Made by a program: the position numbers and the translations under genes
IMG/VR virus record: IMGVR_UViG_3300030012_002612
Location: 1-23,094 of that record
From: a virus
DNA: 23,094 nt
Strand: one strand, 5' to 3'
In this document: positions 4,566 to 23,094 of the stretch, piece by piece
Layout: each line of letters starts with the position of its first letter
Numbering within the stretch: position 1 is the first letter of the stretch
The notes under the pieces: generated by a model
The model's database searches: none
What the model was told of the DNA's origin: nothing
Seen by the model: only the letters and a program-made list of their open reading frames with translations

Positions 4566-4591
4566 TTTATTTCTCCGACTAAGGTTTTGTT

Positions 4592-4609
4592 AAGTTTACC
4601 ACTATGAAC
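4592..4609 (+). promoter_or_regulatory. Phage-type promoter motif pointing antisense to the capsid block
   Basis: AAGTTTACCACTATGAAC matches the repeated motif AAGTTTACCACTATAGAAC at 9389-9407 over nearly its whole length. It shares TTTACCACTAT with copies at 12091 and 18920. The CACTAT core followed by a purine resembles promoters of T7/SP6-type RNA polymerases. Unlike the other strong copies it points away from the downstream genes: it reads plus, while capsid and scaffold are on the minus strand. Confidence 0.55.
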
Positions 4610-9388: not shown

Positions 9389-9407
9389 GTTCTATAGTGG
9401 TAAACTT
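9389..9407 (-). promoter_or_regulatory. Phage-type promoter motif before the terminase gene
   Basis: On the minus strand the sequence reads AAGTTTACCACTATAGAAC. The CACTATAGAA core is almost the SP6 promoter core, CACTATAGAAG. It points toward the terminase gene and directly follows the stop codon of the gene upstream. SD CAGGAG and the GTG start follow, so a transcript from here would have a leader of roughly 25-30 nt. Confidence 0.6.
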
Positions 9408-11660: not shown

Positions 11661-11686
11661 AATAATATCAAATCAAACAGGTGATA

Positions 11687-11714: not shown

Positions 11715-12089
11715 ATGTCAATCAATATAGCACCCGCACTCGAAGGCGGTACCATCATCAACTGGAATAACCAAACTTACGTCATCATCGATATAGATGC
11801 CATTGAGGAAGGTGTCACTCGTTTCAAGTGCCTCAACTGCACCTCAGCCGAGGAGTACACCCTTATCAATTATTCATCGACAACAGACGAGTATTGGGAA
11901 GCAATCCAAGGCAAGGCTGAATTTAATTATGAGACAGGCAAGGAGTGTCCTGACCATTACTCTTATGATGAGGAACTGGAAGCAGCGCTAAGTGATTACC
12001 CAACCTATTGGCGAGAAGAAGGGTCAATGTGTGAAGACCTGCCTGATAGCCTTTGGTGGGATGAGAGAGGTCCGCGCATCGCCGCCTAA
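11715..12089 (+). CDS. Acidic early protein, function unknown
   Basis: This is a 124-residue protein with SD AAGGAGA 5 nt before ATG. The first half looks like a small beta barrel (GGTIINWNNQTYVIIDIDAI, then TRFKCLNCTSAEEYTLINYS). It contains a single CLNC pair of cysteines. The second half is acidic and probably helical (YDEELEAALSDYPTYWREEG) and ends with WWDERGPRIAA. I do not recognise it. As the first gene behind two host-type promoters it is likely among the first proteins made after infection, so host-takeover or defence-inhibition roles are possible but unproven. A phage-type promoter motif begins immediately after its stop codon. Confidence 0.75.
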   Translation: MSINIAPALEGGTIINWNNQTYVIIDIDAIEEGVTRFKCLNCTSAEEYTLINYSSTTDEYWEAIQGKAEFNYETGKECPDHYSYDEELEAALSDYPTYWREEGSMCEDLPDSLWWDERGPRIAA

Positions 12090-17650: not shown

Positions 17651-17959
17651 TTATTTTTTTCGTTTAGTTGTTGTCTTCTTTTTCTTTGACTTTGATGGAA
17701 AGTCGATTGCTCGTGCTTTACCACCACGTAGTACAGAGTTCACCCTCGCCATAGCCCAAGCGTGAGCAGACATCCCTTTACGAGAACCTGATGACGCGTA
17801 CGCGGCGAGACCTTTATTATACGATTTTCTAAGTTGAGCGGCAGTAAACTTACTTCCTTTTGCTTTTTCACTTAGAGTTTTTGCGAGAGACTTTTTTCCC
17901 TTTGCGCTTCGTTTTTTTGCTGTACTTGCTTTTTTTGTTTTTGAAACTTTTCTTGGCAC
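17651..17959 (-). CDS. Lysine-rich small protein with 'MSAHAWAMARVNS' core
   Basis: I choose GTG 17959 because AGGAAAAGGAA precedes it. An upstream GTG at 18034 has no SD. The resulting 102-residue protein has a Lys/Ser/Ala-rich N-terminus (KVSKTKKASTAKKRSAKGKK), a central conserved-looking region (FTAAQLRKSYNKGLAAYASS, then RKGMSAHAWAMARVNSVLRG and GKARAID) and a lysine-rich tail. The 'AWAMARVNSvlrGGKAR.iD' motif recurs, as far as I recall, in small proteins of many marine phages, without a known function. The basic ends suggest nucleic-acid binding, perhaps inside the virion. It overlaps the previous gene by 92 bp in another frame. Confidence 0.6.
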   Translation of the reverse strand: MPRKVSKTKKASTAKKRSAKGKKSLAKTLSEKAKGSKFTAAQLRKSYNKGLAAYASSGSRKGMSAHAWAMARVNSVLRGGKARAIDFPSKSKKKKTTTKRKK

Positions 17960-18125
17960 GTTCCTTTTCCTCCATCTTTTCTCGCAGTTTGAATGCTGCT
18001 TGTTTGTTTCCAGATTTGTATAACCGCTGGGCACGTCCTATGAGTTTAGCACGCTTGCTACCCTTTGGTGCTGAGTATCTTTTTCTTGCGCGTTTACTCA
18101 AGGACGCACCCTTCTTCTTCGGCAT
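17868..18125 (-). CDS. Highly basic small protein
   Basis: This is an 85-residue protein starting MPKKKGASLSKRARKRYSAP, whose ATG overlaps the stop of the preceding gene (TAATG). Over a third of residues are Lys or Arg. The middle (LIGRAQRLYKSGNKQAAFKL, then REKMEEKERAKKS) looks helical and the tail is almost purely basic. It is probably a nucleic-acid-binding or internal virion protein. The last 92 bp also encode the start of the next protein in the +1 frame. Both frames give Lys-rich peptides because the mRNA there is A-rich. Confidence 0.6.
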   Translation of the reverse strand: MPKKKGASLSKRARKRYSAPKGSKRAKLIGRAQRLYKSGNKQAAFKLREKMEEKERAKKSFKNKKSKYSKKTKRKGKKVSRKNSK

Positions 18126-18386
18126 TACTTACCTACCTTTTTCTGAGCCATCTTATGTGCAGCAGCAAAAGACTTACCTTTCTTCATCTCACGTCTCATC
18201 ATCGCCATATGTTTGGCAGAGTGATGTCCGGAGTGTTTACTCAGTTTCGCCTCTTGCGCTTTAGTAAGACGTTTTACTTCTTTTTTTTTTCATCGGCTTT
18301 GACTTACGCTTGGTAGGTTTCCGCTTCATTGGTGACTTCTTTTTAGTTGTCTTCTTTTTCTTTGGTTTTCCATAATGACTTGGCAT
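18125..18386 (-). CDS. Basic small protein split by an A10 run (apparent +1 frameshift)
   Basis: Frame 1 starts at ATG 18386 after AAAAGGAGA and reads MPSHYGKPKKKKTTKKKSPM and onward, reaching a run of ten A (18290-18281) just after an ATG codon. Continuing in frame gives MKKKRSKTSY and a stop at 18261. In the +1 frame after the A-run the reading continues KKKEVKRLTKAQEAKLSKHS, GHHSAKHMAMMRREMKKGKS, FAAAHKMAQKKVGK and stops at 18125, overlapping the next ATG. That second part looks like the conserved half of a marine-phage small protein. It has no start of its own: TGA precedes it. A shift of +1 (or one A fewer) would give an 86-residue protein. Cause: programmed frameshift, polymerase slippage or a sequencing error. 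Confidence 0.6.
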
Positions 18387-18387
18387 T

Positions 18388-18552
18388 TTATTTTCTCCTT
18401 TTACGGGTTGATTTACGTTTACGTTTTAATTTACCTCGCTCTGCTTGAGATGCTTTAACGGCTCTCAGTCTTCGCTTGGCTGCTTTCAATGTCTTAGATT
18501 TACCCTTGACATTTTTAAGTTTGTATCCACCTTTTACTTTACGTATCGGCAT
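18388..18552 (-). CDS. Basic small protein (MPIRKVKGGYK type)
   Basis: Starting at ATG 18552, with SD AAAAGGAGA and a TAATG overlap with the upstream stop, gives 54 residues: MPIRKVKGGYKLKNVKGKSK, then a helix (TLKAAKRRLRAVKASQAERG) and a basic tail. This 'MPIrkvkgGYk...s.tlkaA..r.raikasq' layout is one I recognise from small proteins in many phage and marine virus genomes, whose function is unknown. The frame extends further upstream, but no better start exists there. It lies within a run of five small basic proteins. Confidence 0.7.
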   Translation of the reverse strand: MPIRKVKGGYKLKNVKGKSKTLKAAKRRLRAVKASQAERGKLKRKRKSTRKRRK

Positions 18553-18863
18553 TACTTTCTCCTTTTGCGGGCGACTCGTCCCTTTGTACCTGTAGTCTTC
18601 TTGGGACTGGACTTCGACCACAAGTCCTTACACGCCCAATACGATGCAGTTAGTTTAGATTTTTTCTGGTCACACTTGTGGCGAGCACGAAAAGATTTTC
18701 GAGCAGCGTCAGATATATTATGTCCATACGCTTTCTCACCGTAATGTATTAGTTTCTTCTTACCACCTTCACTTGCTAACACCATCTTCTTCTTGTTCTT
18801 TTTATATGAACGCGCAGGTTTGTTTGGTTTGAGTCTCTTCTTTGCTTTGCTTGCTTTACTCAT
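18552..18863 (-). CDS. Basic protein with 'KSFRARHKCD...YWACK' motif
   Basis: I choose ATG 18863, which overlaps the stop of the Cys-rich micropeptide (ATGAGTAA). A GTG four codons earlier is less likely. The protein is 103 residues with a basic N-terminus (MSKASKAKKRLKPNKPARSY) and a compact core (KLIHYGEKAYGHNISDAARK, then SFRARHKCDQKKSKLTASYW and ACKDLWSKS). The 'I.yGekgy.h....aaRksFraRH.Cd.kk.k.ta.YWaCk.lW' core is a motif I recall as recurrent in marine and giant-virus genomes, with His and two Cys that could bind metal. Function is unknown. It is probably a nucleic-acid-binding virion protein. Confidence 0.7.
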   Translation of the reverse strand: MSKASKAKKRLKPNKPARSYKKNKKKMVLASEGGKKKLIHYGEKAYGHNISDAARKSFRARHKCDQKKSKLTASYWACKDLWSKSSPKKTTGTKGRVARKRRK

Positions 18864-18909
18864 CGCAACACTCACAGTCGCAGCATTTACAGCATTTACA
18901 GTTAGTCAT
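18856..18909 (-). CDS. Cysteine-rich 17-residue micropeptide
   Basis: The frame encodes MTNCKCCKCCDCECCDE: 8 of 17 residues are Cys, in CC and CxC spacings like metallothioneins. It has a near-perfect SD (GGAGGATAAC then ATG), sits directly behind the phage-type promoter motif, and its stop overlaps the start of the next gene, so it can couple that gene's translation. The coding sequence contains a direct repeat of TGTAAATGC. It may bind zinc, copper or iron-sulfur clusters. A pure leader or coupling peptide is the alternative. No similar peptide is known to me. Confidence 0.55.
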   Translation of the reverse strand: MTNCKCCKCCDCECCDE

Positions 18910-18919
18910 GTTATCCTCC

Positions 18920-18932
18920 ATAGTGGTAAAGT
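18920..18932 (-). promoter_or_regulatory. Phage-type promoter motif before the basic-protein cluster
   Basis: On the minus strand ACTTTACCACTAT is followed by GGAGGATAAC and the micropeptide ATG. It is identical to 12089-12101. If transcription starts at the first G, the leader is only about 10 nt with the SD at its very 5' end. Confidence 0.6.
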
Positions 18933-21900
18933 TATTTCTTCATCTGTTGTGTTTTTTGTTGTAGCCTTCTAATAGTATCCTTAACTTTTCTTATCTCAAC
19001 CTCTTGTTGTTTAGGGATACGCATTGGTCTTTCACGCAAGAACGAATAAAACAGTGGTGTACCTTTCTTGTCATACCCATAATAATAATTTTCAGGTACA
19101 TCAACAATACCCGAGTTTATTGCTTCATTGTAATAATCTGAGTATGTACGATTTATTCCAATAACGTTCAATGCTAATTGGTCTGTAAGAAACTGTAAGT
19201 ATCCAGCATTATCTCTGAAACGATACTGATACCCACCAAATGATGGTGACCCAGCAACGTTCTTTTCAGGTGGTCTGACTTCAATGTTGTATCTGTCAAC
19301 CATATATTCAAACGAAGAACCACCCATACCTAACGTAGCGTGTATATACTGAGGTAAATATCTGTCTTGCATTAACTGTATCATCGCTTGTCTTGGTACA
19401 CTTCGTTTGAAGTCTTTATCCATCGCCAAGAATATATCGATACCCGGAATATATGCTGCTCTTGATAAACCTTGTAGAGCCGTCTCTAACGACCTCTCTG
19501 CGCGTCCTTCAGCTATACCCATACCAAAACCCATCAACTCACCTAACATCATTATATTGGATATATATGGCGACCTAATGTACGTGTATGCGGTCGAACC
19601 TTCCTCATCTGCACTTATCTGTGTCCAAAAACTTTCATACGCTCTGTTGTCATTGAACATCCAAGTCCCTGAATTACGTGCCATATTCCTGTGCCAGTTC
19701 GCTAATGCTGATACTCTCAACAAACCTTTTTGTGTAGTCATTGCTCTCAACATTTCAATACTGGTCGCGTATGTAAACGAGAAGAACAAGAACGCTTTAC
19801 CAAACCCTTCACGGAAAGCGTCAGGTAGCATACCGTAGTCTAACATAACTCTTCGCGCTTGGTCTGCTGCGGTAGCAGGTGATGAACCTTTTCTAATCGC
19901 ATCGATAAATATACGTTCACGAAACGCACGGTCGACTTCATCCGCCCAACGCATCCACTTACTTGTGACGTTTGGATTAAAGTAATTCAGTCCATTGATA
20001 CCTAATCGTTTACCTGATGAGAACATATCTCTGATGTCTTTACTTGAACGCGCTAAGTTTTGTAGGTCATTGACTAACTGGTCACCAATTTGTATTGACT
20101 GAGATGATACACCAAGATTATATTGGTTGAACATATCAAACATCTCACGATTAGTGTATCGAGTACCCGGGTATATGTCCAACGGGTTTGTACTTGCTTT
20201 CAGTCTCAACTGATAATACGGCATTGTACTGCTAGTAAAGGCGCTTCGTGGTACTTGAAGTCCAACACTAATAGTTGTTTTAGGGTTTGTAATGTATGCG
20301 ATGAGAGGAGCAGACAATAAGTTTTCTGCGTGATATACAATGTTCGGTGCGACTTTACCACCCAGCATACCTTGTACTAACATACGTCTCGCTGAGTTCG
20401 CACCAGAAGATATGATACCTCGAGCATATCGACCTGTCTCTGTCTGTCCAAGTTTCATAAAGTTTGATTTGAATATGTCAGCACCTTCAGCCGTATCTAA
20501 CGCTGCTTGTGTTCTTTGATATACCTTTGCTTCTGCTGGTGTTAACAGTTTGAGTTCATCGTCTAACATCAGTGTCATTTTATATCTGAAAGAATTAACA
20601 AGTTCGTTAGGACTGAACAAGTCATCAAACCTTGAACCACTTACACCGCTGATATAGTCTATCATATTCTGTGAAGAACCACCGTCAAACATATCTACAT
20701 ATCGCTCAGCGTCATCGTACCCTTGTAATCTATTAACATATCTTTCATAGTTTGCTTCATATCTTGCTACTCTTGCGTCATACGCATCCATACGTTCTGA
20801 GTACTCAGCAAACCTTTCCATACCTTGAAAATCTGACGGGTCTTCTGGTGGGTCAACACGCTTAGGTTCACGAGGTGGTTTAGGTTGTTTTTGTAATGGT
20901 CGCCGTGGTCTCAACTCAACTGTTGTAAGATTATATTTTCTAACAAGTTCTAACATACCCTCACCACGAGCAATACTAGCGTCTGGTGTAGATATCTTCA
21001 AGTCAAATACATCTTGTACAAACTTTTGGTATCGTGCGGGGTTTGTAAATACTGGAGTATCAAGTGTACCAACTCTCGCCATACTATTTGCAGGGTTGTT
21101 TGACCAAGTCGAAGTAATACCCGGTCGATTTGCAAAGTGTTTTCTCGCAGCATTTGTAATAATACCTTTTGTTTCTTTTGATATAATCATATTTACTAAC
21201 GCGTCAAGTTTATCGATTTTAACGTTGTTCAACTCAGGAAACTGTCTCGCCATATTTTCATATATTTGATTTGCGTCAGCAATACTTATCCTAGAATTAT
21301 TTCTAACGTTCATAAACAAAAAGTCTTGTATCTCTGCTTTTGAACCGAGTGGACCAGCGTATGTAGCGATTATCTCACGCAATACAAGGTCAGCATACGT
21401 ACCTGTTTCATCATCGATTAGTCGTCCCATATCTCGTACGTTATCAAACAACTCAGACTTACTCATTGTCTGTATATCCGAAAATGTTCTACCAGCAAAT
21501 TGGTTTGACATTATTGTGACAAATACTTGTTCTTCTTTACTCATACCTTTGAGTGCTGGAAACAAACCGTCAAACTCACTTTGACTAAACGATTTTGCGA
21601 CTTGTTGAAACGTTGTCTTTGAAGTTCTATCAAGTCTCGCAAACCCTTGGTCTACGTCTGATGTAAAGTTTCGTGTGTCAACTGTATCTGCTTCAAGTTC
21701 ATTAAGCGCTTTTGTTTGTTTTGCTTTCTGTTTTGGTTTTGTACCTTGAAACCTAAGTTTAAGTTCTGTCGCTGTATTTGTTATAGACTTTGCTACAGGT
21801 CTCAACATATCTCTAGTATTACGAAACACCTGAGCAACATCACCACGTCTTATACCTTTTGCTTGGTCAAGTATTGGTGGAGCAGTATCAAAGTCTAACT

Positions 21901-23094
21901 TTGCAATGTCCATCAGTTCTGTATCTTTTACAACTCGTGTAATACCATCACGTGCAAACTCTTCAACCATCCTGTCATTGAAGTATCTGAAGTCGTCAAA
22001 CGTAATGCGCTCACCGTTCTTTGCTTTTTGTAGTATTTGAAAAAAGTATGGGTCGTTTGTATTTACTCTGAAACCATCAATGTCACCAATAGCCCTGTTT
22101 ATTTCATCAAAGTCTAATAACATAGTTTGACCGTCAAGGTCTTCAACAAAACGATTTTCACCGTTAACTGTCATACGATTAGTCACGTCACCAAAGTTAT
22201 CGTCCATCCACTTTTTTGATACAATAGTGCGCGGTGTCAACTGTATATAATCACCAATACCTGCTTTGATTAAGTACTCACGTCCGGGTTGTTTTAACTG
22301 ATAGTATCTTGCCGCTGCTATCTCTGCGATGTTTTGGTATACAAGGTCATCTCTTTCTGGTATTGGTCTACCCATCATCTCCGCATCAAACTCATCTGCT
22401 CGTCCAATGACAGGACCCATACCTTCGCCTGCTATATTTTCAGGGTCTATAGAACCGCCTCGTATATCTTGTGTACGAGATGTCTGACCAAAGTCGTCTA
22501 ACTGTTTGTAGTAATCTATTCGTGATACTTCAGTCACATCTTCAGCAAGGTCATCAGCACTTCGCAATGGTCTGTCTTTTCTACCAAACACAGGTTTGTT
22601 TTGTTTTTGAAACTCTATAATGTCTCGTACAATTGCACTGTCAGATTTTAATCCATCATCTAATAATCTTCTAGCACCGGCTTGGTCAACTGTTGGAAAC
22701 TTAGGATATGGAATAACCTGTCGCAACTCACGACTATTTATCAAGTCATCTGCTGCTGCTTTAGGCATACGTGACCTTATTTCTAGTTCAACTGTCGCAC
22801 CTGCTACTTCATCAACAATACCCTCACCAACTAACGCTTCGCTGTATACTGATGGTGCTTTACCTTGAACCTTTGCAAAGTCACCAGCGACACCTAGTTT
22901 TGCTGCGCTTCGTTTTAAGTATTGATTTTTTAATACCGGTCCCGCAAGGTCTGGTGCTGTACGTCTTACTAACTCAGCAACTGCAAGTCCACTACCACCT
23001 GTCGCAAACACATCAATTGTTGTCGCTCCTGCTTCTGTAATAAAGCGTTGTGCTTTTGGAGACTTTGTCGCAATGCTCGCACCTTTTGCTAACA
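18932..23094 (-). CDS. Giant virion (ejection/internal) protein, partial at N-terminus
   Basis: The frame is open from the right window edge to TAA at 18932, about 1386 codons. A GTG at 23011 lies inside the open frame and is probably not the start. The chain is mostly helical and charged, with no signal peptide. It includes a Pro/Arg-rich linker (RRPLQKQPKPPREPKRVDPP) near the middle, a hydrophobic stretch late in the chain (GFGKAFLFFSFTYATSIEML) and a Gln/Lys-rich C-terminus (TIRRLQQKTQQMKK). Length, position among virion genes and one amphipathic membrane-like stretch fit an internal protein ejected with the DNA, as in T7-like phages. I see no RNA polymerase or lysozyme motif in this part. 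The missing N-terminus could hold an enzyme. Confidence 0.6.
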   Translation of the reverse strand, partial: LAKGASIATKSPKAQRFITEAGATTIDVFATGGSGLAVAELVRRTAPDLAGPVLKNQYLKRSAAKLGVAGDFAKVQGKAPSVYSEALVGEGIVDEVAGATVELEIRSRMPKAAADDLINSRELRQVIPYPKFPTVDQAGARRLLDDGLKSDSAIVRDIIEFQKQNKPVFGRKDRPLRSADDLAEDVTEVSRIDYYKQLDDFGQTSRTQDIRGGSIDPENIAGEGMGPVIGRADEFDAEMMGRPIPERDDLVYQNIAEIAAARYYQLKQPGREYLIKAGIGDYIQLTPRTIVSKKWMDDNFGDVTNRMTVNGENRFVEDLDGQTMLLDFDEINRAIGDIDGFRVNTNDPYFFQILQKAKNGERITFDDFRYFNDRMVEEFARDGITRVVKDTELMDIAKLDFDTAPPILDQAKGIRRGDVAQVFRNTRDMLRPVAKSITNTATELKLRFQGTKPKQKAKQTKALNELEADTVDTRNFTSDVDQGFARLDRTSKTTFQQVAKSFSQSEFDGLFPALKGMSKEEQVFVTIMSNQFAGRTFSDIQTMSKSELFDNVRDMGRLIDDETGTYADLVLREIIATYAGPLGSKAEIQDFLFMNVRNNSRISIADANQIYENMARQFPELNNVKIDKLDALVNMIISKETKGIITNAARKHFANRPGITSTWSNNPANSMARVGTLDTPVFTNPARYQKFVQDVFDLKISTPDASIARGEGMLELVRKYNLTTVELRPRRPLQKQPKPPREPKRVDPPEDPSDFQGMERFAEYSERMDAYDARVARYEANYERYVNRLQGYDDAERYVDMFDGGSSQNMIDYISGVSGSRFDDLFSPNELVNSFRYKMTLMLDDELKLLTPAEAKVYQRTQAALDTAEGADIFKSNFMKLGQTETGRYARGIISSGANSARRMLVQGMLGGKVAPNIVYHAENLLSAPLIAYITNPKTTISVGLQVPRSAFTSSTMPYYQLRLKASTNPLDIYPGTRYTNREMFDMFNQYNLGVSSQSIQIGDQLVNDLQNLARSSKDIRDMFSSGKRLGINGLNYFNPNVTSKWMRWADEVDRAFRERIFIDAIRKGSSPATAADQARRVMLDYGMLPDAFREGFGKAFLFFSFTYATSIEMLRAMTTQKGLLRVSALANWHRNMARNSGTWMFNDNRAYESFWTQISADEEGSTAYTYIRSPYISNIMMLGELMGFGMGIAEGRAERSLETALQGLSRAAYIPGIDIFLAMDKDFKRSVPRQAMIQLMQDRYLPQYIHATLGMGGSSFEYMVDRYNIEVRPPEKNVAGSPSFGGYQYRFRDNAGYLQFLTDQLALNVIGINRTYSDYYNEAINSGIVDVPENYYYGYDKKGTPLFYSFLRERPMRIPKQQEVEIRKVKDTIRRLQQKTQQMKK

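Follow-up and report, generated by a model that had tools for sequence, protein, structure and literature searches.

A cysteine-rich micropeptide family of phages and SAR86 with a probable metal-binding role

We found that a 17-residue, eight-cysteine open reading frame (ORF) in the 23,094-nt virus record IMGVR_UViG_3300030012_002612 (the window, i.e. the whole stretch of DNA that was analysed) is very probably a real gene. It falls within a family, apparently not described before, of cysteine peptides of 13-26 residues that many phages and SAR86 carry and among which homology is unprovable at such length. At a probability of about 0.6, we favour the reading that the ORF is genuine and translated, and that its product, one of a widespread family, works in trans by binding metal through thiolates as a very small peptide.

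The micropeptide gene and its surroundings

The gene is encoded on the minus strand (the preliminary description had named no strand), among the following features.

17651..18552, minus strand: cluster of small Lys/Arg-rich ORFs after the micropeptide, one with a DUF5824 domain
18552..18863, minus strand: downstream basic protein of 103 aa, with conserved ARKSFRARHKCD...YWACKDLW, overlapping the micropeptide stop by 8 nt
18856..18909, minus strand: cysteine-rich micropeptide ORF, MTNCKCCKCCDCECCDE*, 8 Cys in 17 residues
18915..18919, minus strand: Shine-Dalgarno (SD) sequence GGAGG, with a 5-nt spacer to the ATG
18920..18934, minus strand: promoter-like motif TAACTTTACCACTAT, with 5 matches in the window against 1.1 expected
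18932..23011, minus strand: upstream gene of 1359 aa, conserved in relatives, putatively a large virion-type protein

The cysteine count given earlier was confirmed at exactly 18909-18856, and the SD sequence was as near to ideal as had been described. The claimed position directly behind a phage promoter was borne out as well, since the motif abuts the SD and recurs both in the window and in its closest relative (contig L002). The motif was exact at 18934-18920 (minus) and at 12087 (plus), and near-exact at 9394 (minus) and 4591 (plus), each with 1 mismatch, and at 11685 (plus), with 2; none of 100 shuffles (0/100) got to 5 matches. The near-exact copy at 4591-4605 (plus) falls between the capsid gene and the scaffold gene, opposite their strand. 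The upstream gene has its stop codon in the TAA of the motif at 18934-18920, and a longer in-frame start of the micropeptide (MEDNMTNCK...) falls inside the promoter and SD. Translational coupling to the next gene, also proposed earlier, agreed with the overlap of the micropeptide stop and the next ATG at 18863, an overlap retained in L002.

The cysteine density was compared with that of about 43,000 small ORFs from 100 dinucleotide shuffles. The Cys fraction of 0.47 exceeded the maximum of 0.40 found in shuffled small ORFs with at least 5 Cys, and only 2 of the about 43,000 combined at least 5 Cys with 30% Cys. With a cysteine density above chance, an SD, a promoter motif and retention in other phages, the suggestion of a real gene that is easily missed was upheld.

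The terminase large subunit (TerL) of the window was distantly related to that of Roseobacter phage CRP-7 (28%). The downstream protein matched PHROG 220 (E=4e-14) and PHROG 7595 (E=4e-13), and comparison of the 1359-aa upstream protein, probably a virion protein, with Pfam and PHROG gave no convincing match. Around the copy in the window, metal genes were looked for and not noticed. Within the basic cluster, a small ORF at 18386-18261 (minus) stops early after an A run while another frame goes on as far as about 18126. In L004 and L008, ORFs of this kind are single and intact (92 and 89 aa), and the break is a frameshift, either programmed or an assembly error. At 17651-18125 (minus), an 85-aa basic ORF and the DUF5824 ORF (GTG start) overlap in different frames. 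A frameshift between these two was considered and dropped, since L004 has the identical layout and the overlap is therefore probably genuine. A further idea, that the neighbours encode internal proteins of the head whose N-termini target them to the capsid, was not convincing (18/64 near versus 58/322 far) and was set aside.

Conservation in phages and in SAR86

Conservation in related phages had been proposed as a check, and a cysteine-rich peptide of 16-24 aa was found in the same cluster in seven nearer relatives, although moved or rearranged. L002, whose downstream protein is 88% identical to the window's, encodes MIYLDSVCTGCYKRLCCCAKCCNE in the same slot and keeps the promoter motif, SD and overlap together with 7 Cys of 24 (spacing CxxCxxxxCCCxxCC; Tyr and Leu present), so that the loss of cysteines behind a retained promoter and SD, which had been named as grounds for rejection, was not observed. 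The six others (L001, L013, L004, L008, L003 and L005) have no ORF of this sort in the slot and carry MSDECKKCQCDPCRCEE, MKDCQCQCPCCKEGKCKR, MKDCQCQCECCKECPKCNG, MRNQCDCQCPCCKDGQCQK or MSECKCQCECCKERCK further along the basic-protein cluster, each preceded by an SD; the peptide of L001 and L013 has only 5 Cys. With spacing so variable among relatives of the window, no fixed cluster geometry is conserved. No Cys-rich micropeptide was present in L007 or in L085/L087, and L006 was uninformative because its contig ends soon after the downstream gene. A search with exact peptides of the upstream protein found no relatives, and alignments A1 and A2 gained just two new contigs. In the relatives L004 (5368-5517), L083 (4865-5008) and L003 (2214-2414), the Cys peptide is followed by a small protein that seems to have a single membrane segment and ends with a stretch containing Cys; no homologue was noticed in the window.

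IMG/VR was then scanned with only the CKCCKCC codons fixed and a near ATG required, which gave at least 20 distinct peptides of 13-26 aa in at least 41 contigs, two members (L139 and L221) being manual additions. Among the matches listed, each of the 20 distinct phage peptides had 8-9 Cys, and cysteines outside the fixed pattern were kept at position 9 in 20/20, at position 11 in 19/20 and again later in 20/20, with an SD by strict regex in 18/20. A looser scan added CDCCNCC, CKCCECC and CKCCRCC variants. A broad viral scan for CxCCxCCxCxC was swamped by tandem and out-of-frame repeats, and only matches with a near ATG plus an SD or a matching layout were kept. With these variants included, the member contigs formed at least 20 nucleotide-level clusters. 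The family follows the pattern M-x0-6-C-x-C-C-x-C-C-x-C-x-C, usually with another Cys shortly after, and the linker positions vary (K, D, N, E, R, S) whereas the cysteines are constant.

The genes next to the phage members were diverse: NifU_N by Pfam and, by reading of the sequence, T4-like structural or tail-type, cytidyltransferase-like, exonuclease-like and basic-protein genes. Judged from gene content and phage relatives rather than from sample records, the member contigs are probably marine. Megablast of four of them found no cultured relative; members of 20-26 aa had no Pfam or NCBIfam match, such short queries having little power, and a 26-aa member matched none of the solved structures. 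The open-access literature searched contained no description of this peptide family, although other papers may. A CxCCxCC scan of 12 annotated marine phage records matched MK613349, KC465899 and GU071096, where the matched letters look repetitive or include an in-frame stop.

A stricter K pattern, applied to bacterial genomes, gave matches in SAR86, Porticoccaceae and others. The pattern C[RRN]CC[RRN]CCxCxC matched 71/203 genomes of the SAR86 order (about a third) and 4/390 of the Porticoccaceae order, one credibly. Across the phylum it matched 2/299, the query genome and a repeat, leaving about 298 other Pseudomonadota with no credible match. Thirty SAR86 matches were read as loci, and all except L424 were micropeptides (e.g. 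MCDCCDCCECSCCSK); a ninth Cys, outside the search pattern, was retained in 29/29. A strong -10-like box in the SAR86 loci (L404-L433) mostly starts 12 nt and ends about 6 nt before the ATG, so that the mRNAs look leaderless. L424 and L434-L436 were rejected as repeats or unlikely ORFs and L440 as a GGC/TGC repeat; the L399 match sits in a contig that looks phage-like and is followed by a tmRNA-like sequence.

Metal-gene linkage and a probable metal-binding function

A link to metal homeostasis was seen in SAR86 but not in the window phage. Among the matches listed, 30/56 SAR86 loci had MerC (PF03203) on the strand of the peptide and no more than 2.6 kb away, with distances computed from listed places alone and the 56 loci with a listed MerC as denominator. 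These 30 are not independent, because the linkage is partly inherited by descent. MerC was downstream of the peptide in some loci, upstream in others and elsewhere in several, and these different arrangements suggest that the linkage has been re-formed. HMA, CsoR-type regulator and cupredoxin genes were present besides in L397. Twenty SAR86 MerC neighbourhoods lacking the pattern held no Cys-rich small ORF, which suggests presence or absence instead of decay and indicates that such ORFs are rare by chance. Since the SAR86 copies often adjoin metal-transport genes, the peptide probably binds metal, and this linkage together with the composition points to soft-metal thiolate binding.

Methanobactins and bufferins are copper-binding modified peptides. 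They resemble this family as small Cys peptides linked to copper; the present peptides have no leader peptide, and no modifying enzyme was noticed adjoining them. The metallothioneins (bacterial SmtA, mycobacterial MymT and the small fungal Cu-metallothioneins) share the very high Cys fraction with CXC and CC motifs, the near absence of aromatic residues in the core family (L002, with its Tyr and Leu, excepted) and, in SAR86, the metal-related neighbours. This family differs in its length of 13-26 residues (MymT is 4.9 kDa; PMC7558416), its occurrence in phages and its lack of a Pfam or NCBIfam match. The earlier label of metallothionein-like held for composition, with CXC and CC motifs and 8/17 Cys in MTNCKCCKCCDCECCDE; metal binding is inferred, as are translation, the identity of the metal and what the phage gains from it.

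In the proposed mechanism, the phage promoter would transcribe the micropeptide together with virion-type genes, and its eight cysteines would enclose ions of a soft metal to form a cluster like that of metallothioneins. The metal would most probably be Cu(I) or a different thiophilic one, for example Zn, Cd or Hg. The micropeptide may thereby buffer metal, or keep it sequestered, inside infected cells. The retention of cysteines beyond the search pattern, the variable linkers and the unrelated neighbourhoods argue for a peptide that acts in trans. The earlier proposal of cluster supply to the His/Cys product of the next gene found no support, because the downstream genes differ between lineages.

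Alternative explanations

Cysteine-rich ORFs just ahead of or overlapping a gene may also act in cis, with Cys-tRNA supply setting the speed of translation and so controlling the downstream gene. The leaderless polycysteine attenuator ORFs of mycobacteria (cited in PMC9031893) offer a precedent for short, Cys-rich ORFs of this sort, and the SAR86 copies, with the -10-like box ~6 nt from the ATG, likewise look leaderless. This family differs by its fixed interspersed CxCCxCC, by SDs in the phages and by varied downstream genes (tail-type, cytidyltransferase-like, NifU_N, exonuclease-like, MerC, glyoxalase II and others), among which no Cys-biosynthesis gene was noticed. Moreover, an attenuator would not need the exact CxCCxCCxCxC spacing that is retained, and folding of the RNA surrounding the window ORF was weaker than that of 200/200 shuffles (z +2.4). 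Three other loci showed no significant RNA structure either, the downstream genes are not one conserved Cys-metabolism operon, and we consider attenuation improbable. A related possibility is that the nascent peptide senses copper. In the CruR-type leader of Bordetella, a copper-responsive upstream ORF controls the coupled downstream gene, and the Cys-containing short ORF, its overlap with the next gene (kept in L002) and the metal-type neighbours in SAR86 are similar. This family is not tied to one downstream gene: the phage gene that follows is mostly no transporter, and the ORF precedes a different gene in six relatives. We rate sensing as slightly more improbable still.

A redox or Fe-S role, with Fe-S clusters or thiols being delivered or scavenged by the peptide in the infected cell, takes up the cluster supply proposed earlier and would suit the L146 member, which is followed by a NifU_N scaffold gene (Pfam, E=1e-37), and the L139 member, near an IscA/ErpA-like gene by inspection. 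These are the only two Fe-S assembly-type neighbourhoods noticed (one Pfam-confirmed) in about 20 phage clusters, and the SAR86 neighbours are MerC, HMA, CsoR and cupredoxin instead of Fe-S genes; we regard this role as unlikely, if the least so of the alternatives. A 9-nt tandem repeat inside the ORF (TGTAAATGC twice) could mean that it is a spurious, untranslated product of a low-complexity or duplicated stretch. The SDs, the promoter motif, the conservation of the family, its distribution in SAR86 and the 20 pattern-free MerC neighbourhoods make this the most improbable reading of all.

Beyond the trans-acting metal-binder itself, a broader proposal, to which we give somewhat less than even odds, is that a family of 13-20 residues, among the smallest genetically encoded metallothioneins, occurs in diverse, probably marine phages and in SAR86, and that phages use it to buffer soft metals, e.g. 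Cu(I), during infection. If true, phage-host biology would gain a trait in metal homeostasis. Gene callers pass over peptides of this size, so that a role in metal handling has probably been overlooked in ocean phages and SAR86, and the family offers short, easily synthesised peptides for asking how small a working metallothionein can be.
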